From contig JAQVDS010000009.1 of assembly GCA_028697715.1 (NCBI GenBank), positions 1-64,000 of the forward strand: a stretch of DNA of 64,000 nucleotides, read 5' to 3'. This DNA is from Acidithiobacillus sp. (GTDB lineage Bacteria; Pseudomonadota; Gammaproteobacteria; Acidithiobacillales; Acidithiobacillaceae). How positions within the stretch are numbered: the stretch's first letter is position 1; each line of letters starts with the position of its first letter. Below are positions 166 through 64,000 of the stretch, in pieces. The notes below the pieces were generated by a model. That model searched no databases, was not told where the DNA came from, and saw only the letters and a program-made list of their open reading frames with translations. The position numbers were made by a program, and so were the translations under genes.

Positions 166-3100
166 TCAGGGCAACCACGCGGCAAGCCAGTCATCGAGGC
201 GATTCTCCAATAGCCAATGGGCGCGCACCTGTTTCCGTAATCGGTCGCCCGTCTCCGCCAGCGCCTGCCGATCGGCGATCGCTTCGCGGATAGCCTTCAT
301 CCAATCGCGATAGCGGTTACTCACCCGCACTACTGGAAAATCCCCCTGGTAGGGATATACATCGGAACAGACCACAGGATAACCGAGAATTCCATATTCC
401 AGGAGCCGCAGATGGCTCTTTGCCTCGTTGAAGGGATTGTCTTCCAGCGGCGCGATGGCGAGATCCAGATCCAGACTGGCGAGTTTGGCAGGATACTGCG
501 GCAGAGGCACCCCGGTATGAAACTCCCGGACATAAGGCTTGAGGGCGTCCGGACAAAGCCCAAAAAAGATCCAGTCCACTTCTTCGGCGAGGTCACGCAC
601 CACGTCCGCCACCATTTCGAGGTCACCAGTGTGCCCCACCCCACCAGCCCAGCCCACGCGCGGTTTATCATTGCCGCGGCGCTGTGCCTGTAGCGAACCC
701 CAAACGGCATCCTCGATACAATTGGATTGTACCCGGACCTCATCGCTAAAGCCCTTGTAGGCTTGTGCGAGCGGTTCCGTTGCCACCACCAGCCGGTTAC
801 ATAGCCCCGCCGCTTTACGGAAACGCTTGGCGATATCCTTGTGAATGTGCGCCTTATGCAGGCTTTTGACCGGCAGATTGGTGATCAGGTCGTCGATCTC
901 GAAGACGCGGAAGGCCCCGCTCAAGGCCTTGTGTCGCTCCAGCGCCTCGATCTGCGGCCACTCCATCTGTCGCTGCAAAACAATACTGTCGGGCTGCATC
1001 CGCTCCATTTCGGCAGGCTCGAAGATACGCATGGTTTCCCAACCCTGCGTTCGCCCTGCCCGGTTGAGCGCGCGCATCGGCGCGATGATGCGATACTCGC
1101 CGCAGCCTTCGCGATCCGCCGGATGCACCAGAATGCGCGGCCGCGGACGCCAATCGGGATCCCAGGTCAGGGCCGCCTCACTTTCGATGAGAAAGTCGGT
1201 ACTCGCCAGGCTCAACTGGCGGTTAAAAGCAGGATCAGCAGCGATCTGCGGGAGCCATTTCCGGTAGAAGGCCATTTTCTCGCTGGCAAAGCGCTTTTCC
1301 TTTTCGGGGCTGGGCTTTTTCTCCACTTCGCCGCGCTGACTGGCGGAACCCTCGTGCAACAGGATGGCCCATGGGGTGAAGACGATTTTTTTGCCGCTCT
1401 CCCGAACCTTCAGGCAAAGGTCGATATCATTGTAAGAGACCTGGAATTTCTCCTCATCCAAAGCTCCAACCTGCTGGTAAAGTTCCTTGGCAATCAGCAG
1501 GCAGGCACCAGTCACTGCCGAGAGGTCTTGCGTGAGCATCGCCCGACCGTAGTAGCCTCGGTATTCTGCCGGTTGTCCGATGAAGGAATGTTCCGCCGGA
1601 CCTTTCATCCCCAAAATTACGCCGGCATGCTGGATCTTGCTATCTGGGAACAATAATTTGGCGCCGACGATGCCGACTTCCGGCCGCAAGGCCTGACTGA
1701 CCATTTCGTCCAGCCAGTCCTCATGCAGGGCTGCCGTGTCATTGTTGAGCAGCAGCAAATAGTCGCCGCGCGCCTGTTCAACCGCCCGGTTGTTCATCGC
1801 TGAGAAATTGAAGGCGCCAGGGTGCCGCAGTACCCGCAGGCGTCCGCCGAGGCTTTCTTCCTGCGCCTCCAGCAACTGCAGATAGTTTCTGGTTTCCTCG
1901 TCGTCACTGTCATTGTCCACGAGCAGAATTTCGTAGTGGGGGTAGCGCGTCTTCTCGATGATCGATTCCACGCAGCGTTGCAAAATGCCCAGCTGATTGC
2001 GCGTCGGGATGATGATCGAGACGGTGGGAGTTGCTGTCAGGGGATAGCGCACCCGGGTCGAGGGCGGGAATGGTCCCGGCAGGACCTCAGCGGCAATCTG
2101 CAGGCGCTGCAGGTGACGCTCCAGAGCTGCCTTGCTCGCCGCCAGAATCTCCTCGATGGACTGGCTGCAGTGTCCGCCTCCCTGCAGGCGGTGATAAAGG
2201 ACAGCGGGAATATGTCCGATACCAGCATCCCCCGTTCGCTCCCAGGCTCGTAATACGAGATCGTAGTCCTCCGCCCCATCCGCCGCGGGGTGAAAGCCGC
2301 CCAGAGCCTCAAAGAGCTCCTTCTTGATGACGAGCAAGCCCCCCACATACGGCAGACTGCGCAGGTAATCGATATTAAAATCCGGCTTGCAGTGCGGGTT
2401 CACGTGTTGCCCGTCTGCAGTCAACGAATCTTCGTCGGTATAGATCAGCTGCCATTCGGGGTGCGTGGTAATGGACTGCTGTATGCGGAAAATCGCGTCC
2501 GGTGCCAACTCGTCTCCAGCATCCAGCAACGCGATCCATTCGCAGCCACTGGCAAGGAGCCGCTCGTTGAGGCCAGCAAGCCAGTTTTCGCTCGCGGGCG
2601 GAAGTTCCAGCAGCTCCGCCCTCGCCCACTGTGCCTTGATACTGGCAGTCGTGGCCGCCGCAGAACGGGAGGGATGCAGCAATACGCTAAGCGTAATCCG
2701 GGGAGACTGCGCGCTCGAAGCCTTCTCGGCCTCCGATACCTCCTCGGCCCAGCGACGCTCCATCGGTAGCCAACGCGCTTCGGGGAGCCAGGGCGAGATC
2801 TGACGCACCGGCTCCACCATGAGCGCGCCTGCGCTGTCGCGGACTTCAAACCCCGCTCCCTCGGCACTAAGGGTGAACAGTCGCTCGATCGCATGTGCCA
2901 AGGTGCCATCGACTTGGCCCGCTTCTTCCTCAAAATCGGTGAACTTGAGGTCAAGTGCAAGCAGCGGATCCAGCGCCTCTGGTCGGCACCAGAACATCGA
3001 CCCGGCAAAATAGCCGTGCCGCGACAGATCCGGAGCGAGCCCGAAACGCTGCGACAGAGACGCAATTTGCGGCAAATTACCGTCGTTGTGCAGATGGAGC

Positions 3101-4437
3101 CAGAACCCGCGTGGGCCGACCAGACCTAGCTTGGGCTGCTGCGCGAACGCCTTCAGCGCGCGCGGCGCAGTTTCCAGCAGCTCGGCCAGTAGCTCGCGCC
3201 GCCAGCGGTTGCCGTCCTTGTGCTGCAGAAAGGGAATGTGGATGTTTTCCACATCGCGCAGATGCGGCGATTTCTTAGTGTGCAGAAACAGCAACTGGCT
3301 GTAGCTGCGCTGGCGGGCCATGCGCAGCAGGGCAAGACGCGGGGCAATGTCGCGCCCCCGGTTGGGATGGCGAATGACTACCGCTTCGGGCATGTCGCGC
3401 ACGATGTCGGCCAGCACATCTTCGCGGCCTTCGCTCAGAGAAATATAGACATCGCAGGGCGGCGGCAGGGCCTTGAGAAAAGTCTGAAACTCGGGCCACA
3501 AGTCGGGGTAATATAGGTGCAGCAGGACGGCAGTGCCAACGCCTTGATGTTTGCCATTTGATAAAATTTCCAAGTCATATTGCAACTCGGAAATCTTTCC
3601 CATACTTTTCAACTTATCAGTAGCAAAACTTCTGCCCAAATCCAGCGGGGTTGCAGTATCCGAATATCTTGTGTTTACTATTTCTAGACGAGTTTGTATT
3701 CGACGGAGAATAATTTCTGAATTTTCTGACGGATACTTTTGACACAATTTTTCAAAGGAGTTTATCCACGTAAGGAATCCTACCCCATGTGTCAGCGATT
3801 TTTTTTCGTCCACTCTTTGCCTGATTTTGACAAGAGCATCATCGGACTTAACCACCGTACGATTCCGCGTCAATCGAAGCAAAAAATCCCAGTCCTCATA
3901 CACTGGAAGGCTAACATCAAAAAACTCAGAAAAACTTTCAACCTTATAAGAAACAGACGGAAAAGGGATATAGTTTCCGCCAAGTAACCTTTCATAATCA
4001 AAAGGCATCCCGGCATATGGATTAGCGCGCCCAACCTCACTTCGAGTACCAGACTCAACCCTCTCATAAACATAACAACTTCCACAGATAAAAACATCAG
4101 AACTTCTTAAGTTTTCAACTACATAAAAAAAATAATTCTCCTCAAACTCATCGTCATCATCAAGAAATACAACAATTTCAGAACGCAATATTCGAAGTGC
4201 TGTATTTCTAGCTTCAGAGACACCATAACTTCGGTTGTGATCAATTAACCTTATCCGAGAATCAGAGAACTCGCTGAGCACATGCGAAATATCCAACCCA
4301 CCATCATTTACCACACAAACCGTCCAATTGTTGTATGTCTGAGAAACCACAGATGATATTGCATCACGCAAAAATAATGGCCTATCTTTTGTCGCAATAA
4401 CGACGCCAACTATCGGGTTCCAATCTTTATTTGACAT
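166..4437 (-). CDS. Giant multi-domain glycosyltransferase (GT2 / RgpF-like / GT2 / GT2 / GT1-4-like)
   Basis: A 1423-residue protein built from several sugar-transfer domains. Residues about 5-230 are a GT2 fold (VIATKDRP, then a DDDDE metal-binding cluster). About 297-560 resemble the RgpF/rhamnan-synthesis domain (HPNRGRDIAPRL). About 579-790 are a degenerate GT2, about 804-1060 a good GT2 (SIIIPTRNQ, LLLNNDT), and about 1100-1423 a GT-B-like domain (GCGEYRIIAPMRALNRAG). The ATG at 4437 is preferred over the upstream TTG at 4500 because homology starts right after it. The gene follows flgL on the same strand, so flagellin or surface-polysaccharide glycosylation is plausible but inferred. 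The first third (about 3545-4437) is clearly AT-rich while the rest is GC-rich, and the change falls at a domain boundary, which suggests the N-terminal domain was acquired by recombination. Confidence 0.85.
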   Translation of the reverse strand: MSNKDWNPIVGVVIATKDRPLFLRDAISSVVSQTYNNWTVCVVNDGGLDISHVLSEFSDSRIRLIDHNRSYGVSEARNTALRILRSEIVVFLDDDDEFEENYFFYVVENLRSSDVFICGSCYVYERVESGTRSEVGRANPYAGMPFDYERLLGGNYIPFPSVSYKVESFSEFFDVSLPVYEDWDFLLRLTRNRTVVKSDDALVKIRQRVDEKKSLTHGVGFLTWINSFEKLCQKYPSENSEIILRRIQTRLEIVNTRYSDTATPLDLGRSFATDKLKSMGKISELQYDLEILSNGKHQGVGTAVLLHLYYPDLWPEFQTFLKALPPPCDVYISLSEGREDVLADIVRDMPEAVVIRHPNRGRDIAPRLALLRMARQRSYSQLLFLHTKKSPHLRDVENIHIPFLQHKDGNRWRRELLAELLETAPRALKAFAQQPKLGLVGPRGFWLHLHNDGNLPQIASLSQRFGLAPDLSRHGYFAGSMFWCRPEALDPLLALDLKFTDFEEEAGQVDGTLAHAIERLFTLSAEGAGFEVRDSAGALMVEPVRQISPWLPEARWLPMERRWAEEVSEAEKASSAQSPRITLSVLLHPSRSAAATTASIKAQWARAELLELPPASENWLAGLNERLLASGCEWIALLDAGDELAPDAIFRIQQSITTHPEWQLIYTDEDSLTADGQHVNPHCKPDFNIDYLRSLPYVGGLLVIKKELFEALGGFHPAADGAEDYDLVLRAWERTGDAGIGHIPAVLYHRLQGGGHCSQSIEEILAASKAALERHLQRLQIAAEVLPGPFPPSTRVRYPLTATPTVSIIIPTRNQLGILQRCVESIIEKTRYPHYEILLVDNDSDDEETRNYLQLLEAQEESLGGRLRVLRHPGAFNFSAMNNRAVEQARGDYLLLLNNDTAALHEDWLDEMVSQALRPEVGIVGAKLLFPDSKIQHAGVILGMKGPAEHSFIGQPAEYRGYYGRAMLTQDLSAVTGACLLIAKELYQQVGALDEEKFQVSYNDIDLCLKVRESGKKIVFTPWAILLHEGSASQRGEVEKKPSPEKEKRFASEKMAFYRKWLPQIAADPAFNRQLSLASTDFLIESEAALTWDPDWRPRPRILVHPADREGCGEYRIIAPMRALNRAGRTQGWETMRIFEPAEMERMQPDSIVLQRQMEWPQIEALERHKALSGAFRVFEIDDLITNLPVKSLHKAHIHKDIAKRFRKAAGLCNRLVVATEPLAQAYKGFSDEVRVQSNCIEDAVWGSLQAQRRGNDKPRVGWAGGVGHTGDLEMVADVVRDLAEEVDWIFFGLCPDALKPYVREFHTGVPLPQYPAKLASLDLDLAIAPLEDNPFNEAKSHLRLLEYGILGYPVVCSDVYPYQGDFPVVRVSNRYRDWMKAIREAIADRQALAETGDRLRKQVRAHWLLENRLDDWLAAWLP

Positions 4438-4539
4438 ATCTAAATCCAAAAAATAATCTATTATAAGATAAAAATCATTATTCTGAAATCCAGGCTTCAA
4501 AGAACATAGGCAGCCAATCCTCGTCCTAAAAAAGCTCAG

Positions 4540-5829
4540 CTATATATACTGGAACAAACTCAACCCCTGCACCTGCATAAAGGCCTTTTGTGCAGCCTGC
4601 AGGGCGGTAGAGCTTTCCTGGAACTGGGTAATCACCTGGGGGTAGCTGATGTCGGACAAGCTACTTTGGGTGGTCTGGAACTGCGTGGTAAGGCTACTAT
4701 TCAGGGAACTGACCGATTGTGCCTCCTGCAAATTGGAACCGATCTGCGCCTGCACGCCGAGGATTTGTGTTTGTGCTTGACTGAGATTCTGCAAGACATT
4801 GCTGATGCCCTGCGCACGCTTGGCATTGGCGCCCGGGGAACCGCTCCCCGCCTGGAAGGCCTGGATAAGCTCACTAAAGGTCTGGAAGAGACTTTGCGGC
4901 TTGGATGCCGCCAGGGTAAAGCTTTGCGTCTGGCCATCGGCAGGCTGTCCTTGGGCCTGCACCGAGGCCATGGGGCTGCCCCCAGGGCCGGGGATGTTGA
5001 TGCTTTGCCCGGGCGTGTAGACACCGGAGCTGACCACCCCGGAAGCCGTAAGACCCCCGCCGCCACTAGCGGTCCCACTGCTCACGGTGTAGCTCAGGGC
5101 ACCACTGGCGTTGGCGCTGATGCTCACCTGGTACTCCGCACCCTGCGCCACAAAGACATTGCTGGCCGCGCTCTGATCGATCACCGCGCCGGGCCCCAAG
5201 GTTGCCGTGCCCGATCCCGCGCCATAGTTGCCACTATCTGCTGTCACCGAAAAGGTCCCATTACCACCTGGGATATTCATAAAGACCTGATTCCCGGCCT
5301 GCGATACCGGAAGATTCAATGAGGGGCCGATCTGCAAACTTTGCTGGCTGCTGTCGCCCTGATACAGCACCGTATTGTTGCCCTGTAGGGCAAAGGGCTG
5401 TTGATCGGTAGTGGAACCGCCATAGATGTATTGGCCGTTGCCATTTTGCGTATTGGCGAGCTGCACCAGCTGCTGCAGGTTGCCCTGCATGGTGGTGATG
5501 GCGTTCTGCAGATCGCTGGAGTTGACAGTGGCATTATTCATCTGCACGGCGAGCTGTTGGACCTGATTCATGAGCGTGCTGACGCTCTGCAAGGTACTCG
5601 AACTCAACTGCAGGTTCTGCTGCGCGTACTGATTGCTCTGCTGATAGCTCTGCAGATTGGCGATACGCGCGCCCAGATTGAGCGATTGCGAGTAGGCTGT
5701 TGGGTTATCGGCAGGATTGGTCAGGGCATTGCCCGTGGAGAGCTGCTGACTGAGCTGATTCAGCGTGCTCTGCTGCTGCAGCATGCCACTCAAGCCGGCT
5801 TGAAAGATCTGTTGTGTACTCACGCGCAT
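4540..5829 (-). CDS. flgL: Flagellar hook-filament junction protein FlgL
   Basis: A 429-residue hook-associated protein 3. It forms the second junction layer between hook and filament and is exported by the flagellar type III system. The N-terminus (MRVSTQQIFQAG, then a long Q/S/N-rich helix with DNPTAYSQSLNL near residue 40) and the C-terminal helix are flagellin-like, as in all FlgL proteins. The middle (about 150-300) is a Gly/Ser-rich variable domain. It starts 13 bases after flgK ends and is the last structural gene of the minus-strand flagellar block. A purine-rich GGGAGAGG precedes the ATG. No flagellin gene occurs in the window. Confidence 0.93.
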   Translation of the reverse strand: MRVSTQQIFQAGLSGMLQQQSTLNQLSQQLSTGNALTNPADNPTAYSQSLNLGARIANLQSYQQSNQYAQQNLQLSSSTLQSVSTLMNQVQQLAVQMNNATVNSSDLQNAITTMQGNLQQLVQLANTQNGNGQYIYGGSTTDQQPFALQGNNTVLYQGDSSQQSLQIGPSLNLPVSQAGNQVFMNIPGGNGTFSVTADSGNYGAGSGTATLGPGAVIDQSAASNVFVAQGAEYQVSISANASGALSYTVSSGTASGGGGLTASGVVSSGVYTPGQSINIPGPGGSPMASVQAQGQPADGQTQSFTLAASKPQSLFQTFSELIQAFQAGSGSPGANAKRAQGISNVLQNLSQAQTQILGVQAQIGSNLQEAQSVSSLNSSLTTQFQTTQSSLSDISYPQVITQFQESSTALQAAQKAFMQVQGLSLFQYI

Positions 5830-30401: not shown

Positions 30402-30485
30402 AGTTTTCTCCCTAGATTCTCTGGCAAGCATATCATGCTAGGCGGATCCCATACTCCGCCAAGCCACTTTTGTTAATCCAAAGAC

Positions 30486-30708
30486 GTAATGTCCTCTTTG
30501 TCCAATTGTAAAATATCCCCTTTTGGTTTTGGGGGCGGTGACAGAGGAGATCATTACGATGACGCAGAAGGCGGTGGACCGGCTGGAGGTGATGCAGCAG
30601 TTGGTCAGTCGGACGCTACGGCAGCAAGAGGCGGCACAGCAGCTCGGGCTGAGCGTGCGGCAGGTCAGGCGCCTGCTGATCCGATTTCGAGAGAAAGGGG
30701 CGCCTTAT
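30486..30708 (+). mobile_element. Truncated 5' end of an ISNCY-type insertion sequence
   Basis: The left part of an IS with its transposase start (ATG 30559, AGAGGAG before it). The peptide MTQKAVDRLEVMQQLVSRTL then QQEAAQQLGLSVRQVRRLLI and RFREKGA is the typical N-terminal helix-turn-helix of ISNCY-family transposases. Homology stops abruptly after about 50 codons, where the sequence passes into a dipeptidase remnant. The outer boundary is estimated; no target duplication or right end was found. Confidence 0.6.
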
Positions 30709-31097
30709 ATCGGGCGCAATCCTTCTTGTCGGGCCGACACTTGGGATGGCGCGTTACGCTGTTCGACGCCTATCGCCCTCTGGCGGTTCAGCACTTCATG
30801 GTCTGGAATCTATGCCCGACTCGCCCCCAAAGTATACCGCTTTGGGGGGATTCCCGATCCGGATCCCTGCTGTCCGCCGCCCCACAGCACGGGTGCCGCC
30901 ATAGACTGTAAACTGGTGGATGGAGAAGGTCGGGATATACCCATGCGCGGTCCTGTCGATGACTTTTGGTCTCGGTCATGACCCAGGCGGGGTTTGCGCA
31001 GCATGTTGGAGAATGGTGGCACTTCTCCATCGGAGATCAGATGTGGGCGCATGCGATGGGCGCAAAGCACGCGCTTTATGGACGAATCCTCAGCTGA
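30709..31097 (+). pseudogene. Broken D-Ala-D-Ala dipeptidase (VanX/DdpX-like)
   Basis: Pieces of a peptidase M15D protein appear in order but in different frames. FLSGRHLGWRVTLFDAYRPL comes first. HSTGAAIDCKLVDGEGRDIP and MRGPVDDF follow in a second frame, and GFAQHVGEWWHFSIGDQMWA then LYGRILS and a stop come in a third. The zinc ligands of the family (His and Asp in HSTGAAID, His in EWWH) survive, yet the N-terminus is missing, two frameshifts occur, and about 20 residues are deleted before GFAQ. The 5' part is joined to an IS remnant, so the IS probably caused the truncation. The end overlaps sulP tail to tail by eight bases. Confidence 0.75.
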
Positions 31098-32613
31098 TCT
31101 TATCATCCGCCACATGATAACGCGGGTCTTCTGCCACGTTAAAGACGACCAGATCCTTTGCCTTCTCCAGCAAATCCCGGCAGTCACCGCTCAAATGGCG
31201 CAGATACAGCTTCTTGCCCCGCTTCTTGTAGCGCTCCGCCAGCGCATCAATAGCCTCGATGGCGGAATGATCGACAATCCGTGCCCCGCCGAAGTCGATG
31301 ATGACCACGTCCGGATCTTCCGCCGGGGTAAAGAGATTACGGAAGGCGCTCACCGAGGCAAAAAACAGCGTTCCTTGCAGGGTGTATATCTTATGCCCCT
31401 CCGTATCGATGCTAGTTTTGACTTCAATCTGCTTGGCGTGCTGCCAGGCAAAGACCAGCGCCGCGATGATGACTCCCGCCACTACCGCCAAGGTAATATT
31501 GACCAGCACCGTAATGGCGGCGACCAGAATGCCGATGACTATGTCCGTACGCGGCACCTTGCCGAAAAAGCGCAGACTGCTCCATTCAAAGGTCTTTTCC
31601 ACCACCACGAACATCACGCCGACCAGTGCGGCAATGGGCACCTGGCTAATCCAGTCTGAGGCCAGCACAATAAAGGACAGCAAGAAAATAGCCGTGGTAA
31701 TGCCCGAAAGGCGTTTGATGGCGCCGTTACCGACGTTGATGATGCTCTCCCCCAGCATGGCGCAGCCGCCCATGGCGCCAAAAAAGCCGCTGACCACATT
31801 GGCAAGACCCTGCGCCATGGACTCCCGATTCGGCTTGCCGCGGGTGTCGGTCATCTCGTCAATCAGATCCAGGGTCAACAAGGTTTCCACCAAACCGTTG
31901 GCGGCCATAACCAGGGCGTAAGGGAAGATGACGACCAGCGTATGCCAGGTCAATGGCACTTCCGGCAAATGAAAGCTGGGCAGACCGCCGGCCAGCGATG
32001 CCACATCGCCGATGGTCACCGTAGGAATCTTGAAGACGACCACGAGGAGGGTGGTCACTAACGCACCTGCGAGCGTTGCCGGGATCGCCTTGGTGATGCG
32101 CGGCGTCAGGTAAATAGCTACCATGGTCAGGGCGACCAGTCCGATCATGATATAAAGCTGCGTACCCTGCATCCAGACCATGGCGCCTTGGGCATCCTTG
32201 ACCTTGAAATGCTCTAGCTGCGCCATGAAGATCACGATAGCGAGGCCGTTGATGAAACCGAGCATGACCGGGTGTGGAATCAGTCGCACGAATTTACTCA
32301 GCCGCGCCGCCGCGAAGAAAAGTTGCAGCAGGCCCATCAGGACGACGGCAGCAAACAGGTATTCTACCCCGTGGGAAACCACCAACGATACCGCCACCAC
32401 CGCCGTAGCACCGCTGGCGCCGGATACCATACCTGGTCGCCCACCCCACAGCGAGGTGACAAACACCAGGATAACCGCCGCGTACAAGCCGGTTAACGGC
32501 GAAACATGGGCGACAAAGGCGAAGGCGATGGCTTCCGGCACCAGAGCCAGCGCCACAGTAATGCCGCTAAGGATATTGATCTTGTTTTCTTCAAATCGGG
32601 ACAGGCTTTGCAT
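31090..32613 (-). CDS. SulP-family inorganic anion transporter with STAS domain
   Basis: A 507-residue membrane protein. About ten to twelve hydrophobic helices fill residues 1-410 with SulP signatures (SGITVALALVPEAIAFAFVA, HPVMLGFINGLAIVIFMAQL). A C-terminal STAS domain (about 415-500; VVIIDFGGARIVDHSAIEAI) follows. SulP proteins carry sulfate, bicarbonate or other anions, usually with Na+ or H+. The short form and FINGLAI motif resemble BicA-type bicarbonate carriers as much as sulfate permeases, so the substrate is left open. Both sulfate and inorganic carbon would suit a sulfur-oxidising autotroph. It is transcribed alone, divergent from the ABC importer. Confidence 0.88.
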   Translation of the reverse strand: MQSLSRFEENKINILSGITVALALVPEAIAFAFVAHVSPLTGLYAAVILVFVTSLWGGRPGMVSGASGATAVVAVSLVVSHGVEYLFAAVVLMGLLQLFFAAARLSKFVRLIPHPVMLGFINGLAIVIFMAQLEHFKVKDAQGAMVWMQGTQLYIMIGLVALTMVAIYLTPRITKAIPATLAGALVTTLLVVVFKIPTVTIGDVASLAGGLPSFHLPEVPLTWHTLVVIFPYALVMAANGLVETLLTLDLIDEMTDTRGKPNRESMAQGLANVVSGFFGAMGGCAMLGESIINVGNGAIKRLSGITTAIFLLSFIVLASDWISQVPIAALVGVMFVVVEKTFEWSSLRFFGKVPRTDIVIGILVAAITVLVNITLAVVAGVIIAALVFAWQHAKQIEVKTSIDTEGHKIYTLQGTLFFASVSAFRNLFTPAEDPDVVIIDFGGARIVDHSAIEAIDALAERYKKRGKKLYLRHLSGDCRDLLEKAKDLVVFNVAEDPRYHVADDKIS

Positions 32614-33058
32614 CGGACTGCTCCACTTGAGGCAAATGCGTCTCCATGCCGGGTTGGGCGCTTAGGCCCGCAGTGCGGCAGGAAGCAGCAGTAGAGTTCG
32701 AAAATGAGAAAGGCGAAAGCTTCGCCTGAGTGCGGTTAGCAGTGACCGCAATAAAGAATGGGGTTGAAACTCACATCGGAGGATGGCACCTGATTCATTG
32801 GCTTAATGACTAAATACCGTACCAGAGTCCTGATTTATAATCAAACCTGGTTTGCCTCCCATGTTAGGCTTTCCGCAGGGTCAGCCCCGCGGTGGGAGAA
32901 AAGCGCATTCAGTGGGCAAGAACGAGCACAATGATGGTCGCGTTCCACCACAGCTGCAGAAAGATTCGCAGCTACATGGCGAGCGGGCGCACCGGAGCGC
33001 TTGACAGCAAAGTATACCCATCCTACATTCCGCAACTCTGTTGCGCTGGTACGCATGC
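32614..33058. other. Intergenic region between sulP and the ABC importer
   Basis: About 445 bases with no credible gene; it should hold both divergent promoters. Visible structures: an inverted repeat AGGCGAA-agc-TTCGCCT (near 32711-32727), arms TGCGGT/ACCGCA just after it, and two adjoining dyads at 32831-32854. No clear -35/-10 pair or known riboswitch was recognised. Confidence 0.5.
32831..32854. promoter_or_regulatory. Two adjoining dyads, candidate operator
   Basis: TGATT-tat-AATCA (32831-32843) runs directly into CAAACC-t-GGTTTG (32842-32854). Both have perfect arms. Their place, upstream of a metal-type importer and sulP, suggests a repressor site, but neither matches a Zur, Fur or MntR box that I can identify. 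Confidence 0.3.
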
Positions 33059-63401: not shown

Positions 63402-63503
63402 GGCAAACATCAAGATTCCATCAATTCGTCGACGAGCCTCGGGGAAACAAAGTCATTTAAATACGTCGCAAGACCTCATCGATTGACCTATTGGCCTCTT
63501 TCC

Positions 63504-64000
63504 TCATTTCCGCAGCCTTTTCAGTATCGTCAAGGGCAGACGTCCCCCCGGAACCACTATATCCAAGGCGTCTCCGGCAACATCCATTAAGAAATCCGGA
63601 TCTTTCATCATGGATATTAACTCTTTCTTCATTCTACCACCACCAACGGTTTTTCCGTTAAGACCGTCCACCTCCAAAACCGCCGTTTTCTGATCCCAAA
63701 GACACTCAAAGGCATACACTGGATGGTAATAAAGGTAGACTTTCTTAAAGGTGACGGTATCACTCATTATCTCGCTGGCGTTCACAGAATGCGCGAGCTC
63801 TCTTTCTGTTAGATGAATAATTGTTGCGAGCTTTTTCTCCGGTTGCAGTAAAAGATTATCCTGCATCACCTCCTCAAAAGTCAACTCCTGCTGCTCAGAT
63901 GAGTGTTTTTCTATATATTCCACCATTTCTCTTTTATTCACGTCTCTTGTAGTTCCATAAATATGAGAAATGTGAACCTTCTTATTATTACAATGCTCGG
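63504..64000 (-). CDS. AT-rich gene of unknown function, 5' end beyond window
   Basis: An open frame runs from the window edge to a stop at 63504 (at least 165 codons). A GTG at 63941 could start a 145-residue protein, but the frame continues upstream without a stop (HISHIYGTTRDVNKREMVEY) and looks coding, so it is treated as partial. The C-terminus reads MDVAGDALDIVVPGGRLPLT then ILKRLRK. No family recognised, and no signal peptide or membrane helix is evident. The stretch is clearly more AT-rich than the rest, which suggests horizontal transfer. Confidence 0.6.
   Translation of the reverse strand, partial: EHCNNKKVHISHIYGTTRDVNKREMVEYIEKHSSEQQELTFEEVMQDNLLLQPEKKLATIIHLTERELAHSVNASEIMSDTVTFKKVYLYYHPVYAFECLWDQKTAVLEVDGLNGKTVGGGRMKKELISMMKDPDFLMDVAGDALDIVVPGGRLPLTILKRLRK

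Follow-up and report, generated by a model that had tools for sequence, protein, structure and literature searches.

The closest described systems are the flagellin glycosylation clusters of Pseudomonas (PAO1, b-type; P. syringae, Fgt1/Fgt2), where a large glycosyltransferase (GT) gene forms part of the cluster. Two reports on PAO1 (PMC11833859, PMC10714395) describe FgtA (PA1091) as uniting a glycosyltransferase and a phosphotransferase; flagellin of the pa1091 mutant is bare, and the pa1088-pa1090 mutants retain only a deoxyhexose. For P. syringae, PMC3927599 states that Fgt1 puts rhamnose on a serine residue and that the outer parts vary between pathovars. A legend in the paper on Acidithiobacillus ferrivorans CF27 places a "glycosyltransferase" between FlgL and FliC. 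Here, we analyzed a giant gene next to flgL in a 64,000-nucleotide stretch of Acidithiobacillus sp. (contig JAQVDS010000009.1, positions 1 to 64,000; hereafter the window). Our comparisons make it quite likely that this gene encodes an FgtA-like flagellin O-glycosyltransferase in which the protein-facing core stays constant and the N-terminal modules are exchanged, which would alter the outer glycan. It shares with fgtA the gene order flgL-GT-fliC, and the homology of the cores was shown via Pseudomonas turukhanskensis (L143), not via PA1091 itself. The difference is that, in Acidithiobacillaceae, Thiomonas and their kin, joined modules were repeatedly replaced within one gene, the core staying nearly constant.

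The flagellin glycosylation islands of Enterobacteriaceae (PMC4875605) resemble this locus in that hypervariable, G+C-deviant, horizontally acquired glycan genes lie beside fliC, in the methyl and other decorations, and in that some of their transferases contain methyltransferase domains. Whole genes and clusters come and go there, whereas here the variation lies mostly inside one open reading frame (ORF) with common seams, extra whole genes being present in two loci (L052 and L053). As in an island, the content differs between close relatives, and the composition deviates in many rows of our comparison, not in all. Segmentally variable genes (PMC387263) also combine variable and conserved segments in one gene, and glycosyltransferases are among them, but their authors separate them from domain shuffling and fusion, while here the variable part consists of recognizably different enzyme domains. 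Moreover, the variable part is N-terminal and its other border is the flgL gene, so it is not framed on both sides by conserved segments of the same protein. Already known are FgtA, flagellin glycosylation islands that vary and, for A. ferrivorans, the gene order flgL-glycosyltransferase-fliC; our searches of the open-licence literature brought up no account of this gene repeatedly exchanging its N-terminal modules at common seams and drawing on a donor from another class. Polymorphic toxins also consist of a constant part and exchangeable modules. The modules exchanged in our gene form the front of a biosynthetic enzyme, and nothing suggests a toxin.

The gene lies in an uninterrupted ORF on the minus strand (166-4500) of 1444 amino acids counted from TTG at 4500, and the residue numbers below follow this count. 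The ATG at 4437 corresponds to residue 22, so that the TTG would give 21 extra residues; the ATG fits better as the start because residue 12 of the A. montserratensis protein (L099) aligns to residue 31 here. The locus is composed as follows.

166..4437, minus strand: giant, putatively fgtA-like flagellar-locus glycosyltransferase gene (ORF, Pfam, relatives; ATG favoured, TTG at 4500 possible)
3541..4437, minus strand: variable module 1, AT-rich GT2, residues ~22-320 (Pfam, G+C, structure model with PDB matches, relatives)
2850..3540, minus strand: variable module 2, RgpF domain, residues ~321-550 (Pfam; 85% amino acid and 86.5% nucleotide identity to Thiomonas bhubaneswarensis)
2548..2849, minus strand: residues ~551-651, a linker plus the initial half of GT-A domain A (common to YTS05; in most differing pairs examined it varies along with the front)
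169..2547, minus strand: constant core, residues ~652-1444 (remaining domain A, GT2 domain B and GT-B domain C)
2506..2529, minus strand: LLDAGDEL codons of domain A, DXD-like motif (commonest seam at or just 5′ of these codons)
~1201-2028, minus strand: GT2 domain B, part of the core (structure model)
~169-1149, minus strand: GT-B domain C, part of the core (structure model)
4540..5829, minus strand: flgL, hook-filament junction protein, constant upstream flank (Pfam Flagellin_N and position)

Pfam and the predicted structure together gave five transfer modules (GT2, RgpF, GT-A domain A, GT2 domain B and GT-B domain C), in agreement with the "about five" of the original prediction, which had been made from the letters alone and had also placed the gene next to flgL. 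By Pfam, residues 33-153 form a GT2 domain, the central part of the protein contains GT2-type domains, and the C-terminal end gave a weak GT1-like match, under its curated cut-off; PF05045 (RgpF) was recognized at residues 313-548 with 111.7 bits against a cut-off of 25. The latter match spans profile positions 262-500 of 503, i.e., one domain and not a whole RgpF protein. The AlphaFold model of residues 304-1444 (mean predicted local distance difference test score, pLDDT, 91.6; predicted template modelling score, pTM, 0.79) comprises RgpF, the GT-A-like domain A (from ~602), the GT-A domain B (from ~827) and the GT-B domain C. In a fold search, domain B resembled polypeptide GalNAc-transferases and domain C GT4 enzymes, common folds from which we read no specificity, and the matches barely cover domain A itself. 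The best PDB match of the AT-rich GT2 module was AvpGT (9jma), from which we read no substrate. We take LLDAGDEL to be a DXD-like motif and assume the usual roles for such motifs and for the halves of a GT-A domain.

The replacement is seen most directly against Acidithiobacillus sp. YTS05 (G007, identical to L132), the nearest relative found, in which both the core and flgL are 97% identical. At the DNA level, the identity is 95.0% over 126-2849 and 93.6% from 4537 on; nothing in 2850-4536 can be aligned, and this stretch begins 3 bp past the flgL stop codon. At the same place, the YTS05 gene carries a methyltransferase and a GT4 domain and the window gene GT2 and RgpF. The non-aligning stretch covers the RgpF part, which, though GC-rich, therefore belongs to the exchanged segment. 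Switching from a silent cassette stored in the window genome was considered and is not supported: the YTS05 front has no copy there, giving one weak match only (29%, in the methyltransferase part).

The base composition was examined by a binomial change-point analysis, which placed a G+C step at 3544, with 0.38 above and 0.62 below it; normal values are reached again at 4564. Of all 900-bp stretches in the 64 kb, the one starting at 3663 is the lowest (0.378 G+C), 6.2 standard deviations below their mean, the second-lowest separate one having 0.488. At third codon positions, the G+C content (GC3) is 0.33 in residues 22-320, as against 0.72 in 321-550 and 0.70 in 651-1444. The step lies ~7 bp from the start of nucleotide homology to the Thiomonas RgpF module (window ~3537), and the G+C border is a seam between two exchanged modules, not a boundary between native and foreign DNA. 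The original prediction had noted the abrupt change near 3545 at a domain border, which is borne out, GC3 included, and had interpreted the gene as a mosaic arising by module exchange, which the different fronts on the same core support. It was right that the AT-rich GT2 part was exchanged, and wrong in confining the foreign part to that domain and in counting the GC-rich RgpF part as native remainder, since the exchange runs through RgpF to about codon 550.

The two modules have different relatives. The window RgpF and its Thiomonas bhubaneswarensis (L113) counterpart share 84.9% identity as proteins and 86.5% as DNA, as against 72% and 70.6% for the cores of the same two genes; to the nine other rows taken as Acidithiobacillaceae, the window RgpF is at most 62% identical. 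In the RgpF tree it pairs with the Thiomonas module with a support of 100/98, and a single clade of the ten Acidithiobacillaceae rows was rejected by the approximately unbiased (AU) test (p-AU 0.02), this group having been set before the tree was made but after the blast identities were known. DNA homology to the Thiomonas RgpF extends from window ~3537 to ~2817, overlapping the YTS05 homology by ~30 bp. These comparisons argue for two imports, not one, with a Thiomonas-like (Betaproteobacteria) origin of the window RgpF module.

Relatives of the AT-rich GT2 module occur in G002 (63% identity), L099 (53%) and G006 (47%). The 53% relative, A. montserratensis (L099/G015), has the same GT2+RgpF front, its first 900 bp being equally AT-rich. 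In a phylum sample of 398 genomes (E 1e-20), the module was found in five genomes besides the window's own, at 31-37% identity. In all five it precedes the core within one long open frame, and the module is therefore tied to this enzyme family; in four of the five, fliC comes after, within the stretch examined. The searches of the phylum sample and of phages and plasmids revealed no close donor. A phage origin was rejected, the search giving one short weak hit (36% over 29% of the query), and so was a plasmid origin, for which 29 records were matched, all below 60% identity and two of them covering 80% of the query.

A search of 57 relatives gave a match in 40, and within the family the core was matched repeatedly and the N-terminus in part of the genomes only. 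In alignment A1, the core is 97% identical to that of YTS05, and its identity to each of the remaining 13 rows is 52-88%. From 78 loci of named records and from the family genomes, 49 rows were labelled by N-terminal architecture; in the rest of the loci the N-terminus or core was cut off, the core was distant, or the locus was unscanned, and L132 was dropped as the G007 record. The labels were derived from Pfam for representatives and from blastp homology for the others. Equal Pfam labels may mask different modules; U1 and U2 denote fronts without a Pfam match at 1e-5. Across the 49 rows, a constant core carries 20 N-terminal architectures, in which methyltransferase, FkbM, GT2, GT4, GT9, RgpF and other domains are variously combined. 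The core tree of the 49 rows, a quick tree with SH-aLRT (Shimodaira-Hasegawa-like approximate likelihood ratio test) support only, requires at least 25 architecture changes, counted without a shuffled-label comparison, and the nearest-core neighbour has a different front for 29 of the 49. Of the 12 pairs whose N-termini were closed and whose cores reached an identity of at least 95%, 3 showed no N-terminal homology, 1 showed it in part and 8 throughout; at 90-95% core identity (n = 38), the numbers were 18, 10 and 10. Fronts of methyltransferase plus GT9 (MT+GT9) and methyltransferase plus RgpF (MT+RgpF) each recur on distant cores. One locus (L065, G013) represents a second, more distant transferase copy with its own flgL-like gene and a core ~50% identical, perhaps a second flagellar locus.

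The ends of the exchanged segments recur. In the window, three seams can be distinguished.

4537..4542, minus strand: seam 1, end of YTS05 homology, 3 bp past the flgL stop codon
3537..3544, minus strand: seam 2, between the AT-rich GT2 and the Thiomonas-like RgpF module, coinciding with the G+C step
2817..2849, minus strand: seam 3, ~30-bp overlap of the Thiomonas RgpF end and YTS05 sequence, matching both

To these we added a comparison of 23 pairs picked for differing architecture. On the flgL side, the point at which homology was lost lay no more than 9 bp from the flgL stop codon in all 17 pairs with both flgL ends known. On the core side, it restarted at -11 to +42 bp of the codon aligned to window residue 645 in 15 of the 23 pairs (which share members, so these are not 15 independent events), at -222 to -300 bp in four, window/YTS05 included, and at -720 to -1021 bp in another four, where RgpF was kept and only the preceding module changed. 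The main seam falls at the strand leading into the LLDAGDEL motif (residue 658), inside domain A, and the first half of this domain therefore travels with the front in most such exchanges; in L095/L097, for instance, it is 21% identical and the following 100 residues 91%. Relaxed constraint on residues ~595-650 was ruled out as an explanation in four pairs (L095/L097, L096/L098, L103/L104 and L105/L139), where these residues are 21-35% identical as against 91-96% in the next 100; in L099/L128, L100/L104 and window/YTS05, with seams further upstream, they are 78-84% identical. A search for a recombinase gene found no ORF of at least 80 amino acids in the flgL-transferase gap of the window. Repeats over 2500-4800 are few, short and imperfect, and nothing was read from them; one arm of a 79% inverted repeat pair lies at 2824-2842, beside seam 3. 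A single genome (G002; L043 10903-12156) has an ISL3-family transposase gene in the interval from flgL to the transferase.

The link to flagellin, anticipated by the original prediction, is sustained by the order flgL-GT-fliC and by co-occurrence with flgL. In YTS05, fliC follows the transferase and fliD comes two genes further on (Pfam). Both flgL and fliC matches flank the transferase in 14 of the 78 named loci, one or both flanks of the remaining loci being outside the stretch examined or under the query's reach. Among 29 family genomes, flgL and the core occur together in 22, neither in 5 and one alone in 2 (Fisher p 0.0003). In Pseudomonas turukhanskensis, a core 51% identical to ours is situated between flgL and fliC, joined to modules of the methyltransferase and phosphotransferase kinds; the three genes from flgL to the transferase encode a methyltransferase, a HAD-type hydrolase (phosphatase) and a nucleotidyltransferase (Pfam). 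This set matches the kinds of PA1088-PA1091 as given in PMC11833859 and PMC10714395. Compared in blocks of 40 columns, the best FliC match of the window genome (L189, G000 contig 40) and FliC of YTS05 (L039 12245-13828) are 92-100% identical at the ends; the middle comprises seven or eight blocks, of which six show 50-70%, against a background of ~95%, as would be expected if the exposed part were also under diversifying pressure. Some loci hold further genes. Between flgL and the transferase, A. sulfurivorans (L052 2125-7135) and A. marinus (L053 1663-6638) have genes for DegT aminotransferases, WbqC, a MocA-type oxidoreductase, ATP-grasp and methyltransferases. In G008 (L049 2349-4418) and G023 (L041 12860-14713), a further flagellin-type gene separates the transferase from the next fliC-like gene, the one in L041 having the N-terminal domain only.

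By analogy with Pseudomonas, the first sugar is probably attached by the constant core, and the role of the variable end would be to add or modify sugars further out. The suggestion that domain swapping varies the first sugar goes against the Pseudomonas genetics, loss of fgtA (PA1091) leaving flagellin bare and loss of the neighbouring genes for the attached moiety leaving the core deoxyhexose (PMC11833859). The core of ~800 residues (GT-A, GT2, GT-B) would recognize flagellin and start and extend the proximal glycan, and the N-terminal modules (GT2, GT4, GT9, RgpF, methyltransferase, FkbM and others) would add or modify outer residues. The observed pattern suggests that a front is changed by homologous recombination with DNA of other carriers of the locus, one crossover falling within the conserved 3′ part of flgL and the other at a conserved seam, at the DAGDxL codons or ahead of them, ~1-3 kb being replaced; the current window front is an AT-rich GT2 module joined to a Thiomonas-like RgpF module. 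The likely driver would be diversifying selection on the exposed filament, exerted, e.g., by phages or predators. Tentatively, we go further and propose that the flgL-fgtA interval may be a standing exchange site where different classes share one module pool, the flgL end and the DAGDxL seam serving as crossover arms, so that the outer sugar could be changed in one step with core and frame intact.

Other explanations were weighed against this one. The enzyme might build another, lipopolysaccharide- or capsule-like surface glycan and merely be located in the flagellar cluster, its front being under O-antigen-like selection. The RgpF family is indeed named for rhamnan synthesis, but flgL and fliC flank the gene both in family loci and in distant Gammaproteobacteria, five of the six family genomes without a flgL match also lack the core (the sixth, G027, has it at a contig edge), and the counterparts by position and architecture modify flagellin (PMC11833859, PMC3927599), which leaves this explanation unlikely. 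We consider it very unlikely that the fronts differ through independent fusion or loss of separate island genes in each lineage, without exchange of ready-made fronts. Extra sugar genes do lie between flgL and the transferase in some loci, and transferase and phosphotransferase are separate genes in C. difficile and joined in PA1091 (PMC11833859, PMC10714395). Against this speak the recurrence of the MT+GT9 and MT+RgpF fronts on distant cores, the window RgpF being nearer to Thiomonas than the core is, the sharp rise in identity within domain A in the four pairs named above, and the coincidence of seams between pairs. That the AT-rich stretch is an assembly chimera has hardly any probability: the genome is a draft of 71 contigs and the window begins at a contig end, but the reading frame is open across both seams and the same GT2+RgpF front, with an equally AT-rich first 900 bp, recurs in A. 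montserratensis at 53% protein identity.

Several observations weigh against module exchange at a flagellar locus or narrow its reach. Judging from the sequences, either the window or YTS05 could be the changed member, and two further stretches of the window (30465-32995 and 63414-64000) also lack a YTS05 alignment. The closest species pairs agree in their front more often than they differ, and throughout a clade of seven rows, of which two are named Ferrovum, a single N-terminal type persists down to 43% identity; therefore, the exchange is not universal. In 14 of the 49 rows, the G+C content of the N-terminus equals or exceeds that of the core, and composition alone is therefore a weak marker of exchange. 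The shared membership of the seam pairs lowers the number of independent events. Different N-terminal domains on the same remainder, which the original prediction had proposed to look for between strains, were strongly evident between species; the sample comprises one genome per species, and the exchange seen is one between species. As to flagellin, one genome (G024) has flgL without the core and another (G027) the core without a flgL match. Beyond the transferase gene, the window contig extends for only 165 bp, and an adjoining fliC is therefore not seen; the best fliC match (L189) lies on another contig, which ends 848 bp from that match on the side where the transferase would lie.

Taken together, the comparisons describe a single ORF that varies by module exchange at repeated seams, as islands do by gene gain and loss; for one module, a passage between Betaproteobacteria and Acidithiobacillaceae is visible. 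Genes with near-identical cores (97% in the closest differing pair) and different fronts are natural chimeras, which would help to assign modules to parts of the flagellin glycan and to locate cut and join points in multi-domain glycosyltransferases.

As regards the other differences from YTS05, the window has at 30465-32995 a 2.5-kb insertion in place of 8 bp. It contains a SulP-type transporter gene (31090-32613, minus strand; Sulfate_transp and STAS in Pfam) and a short ORF (30523-30981, plus strand) with a helix-turn-helix domain, perhaps a transposase remnant. The final 587 bases of the window (63414-64000) have no YTS05 counterpart, and the contig remains unaligned to ~64284, beyond which the identity to YTS05 is 84-88% and then again 95%.

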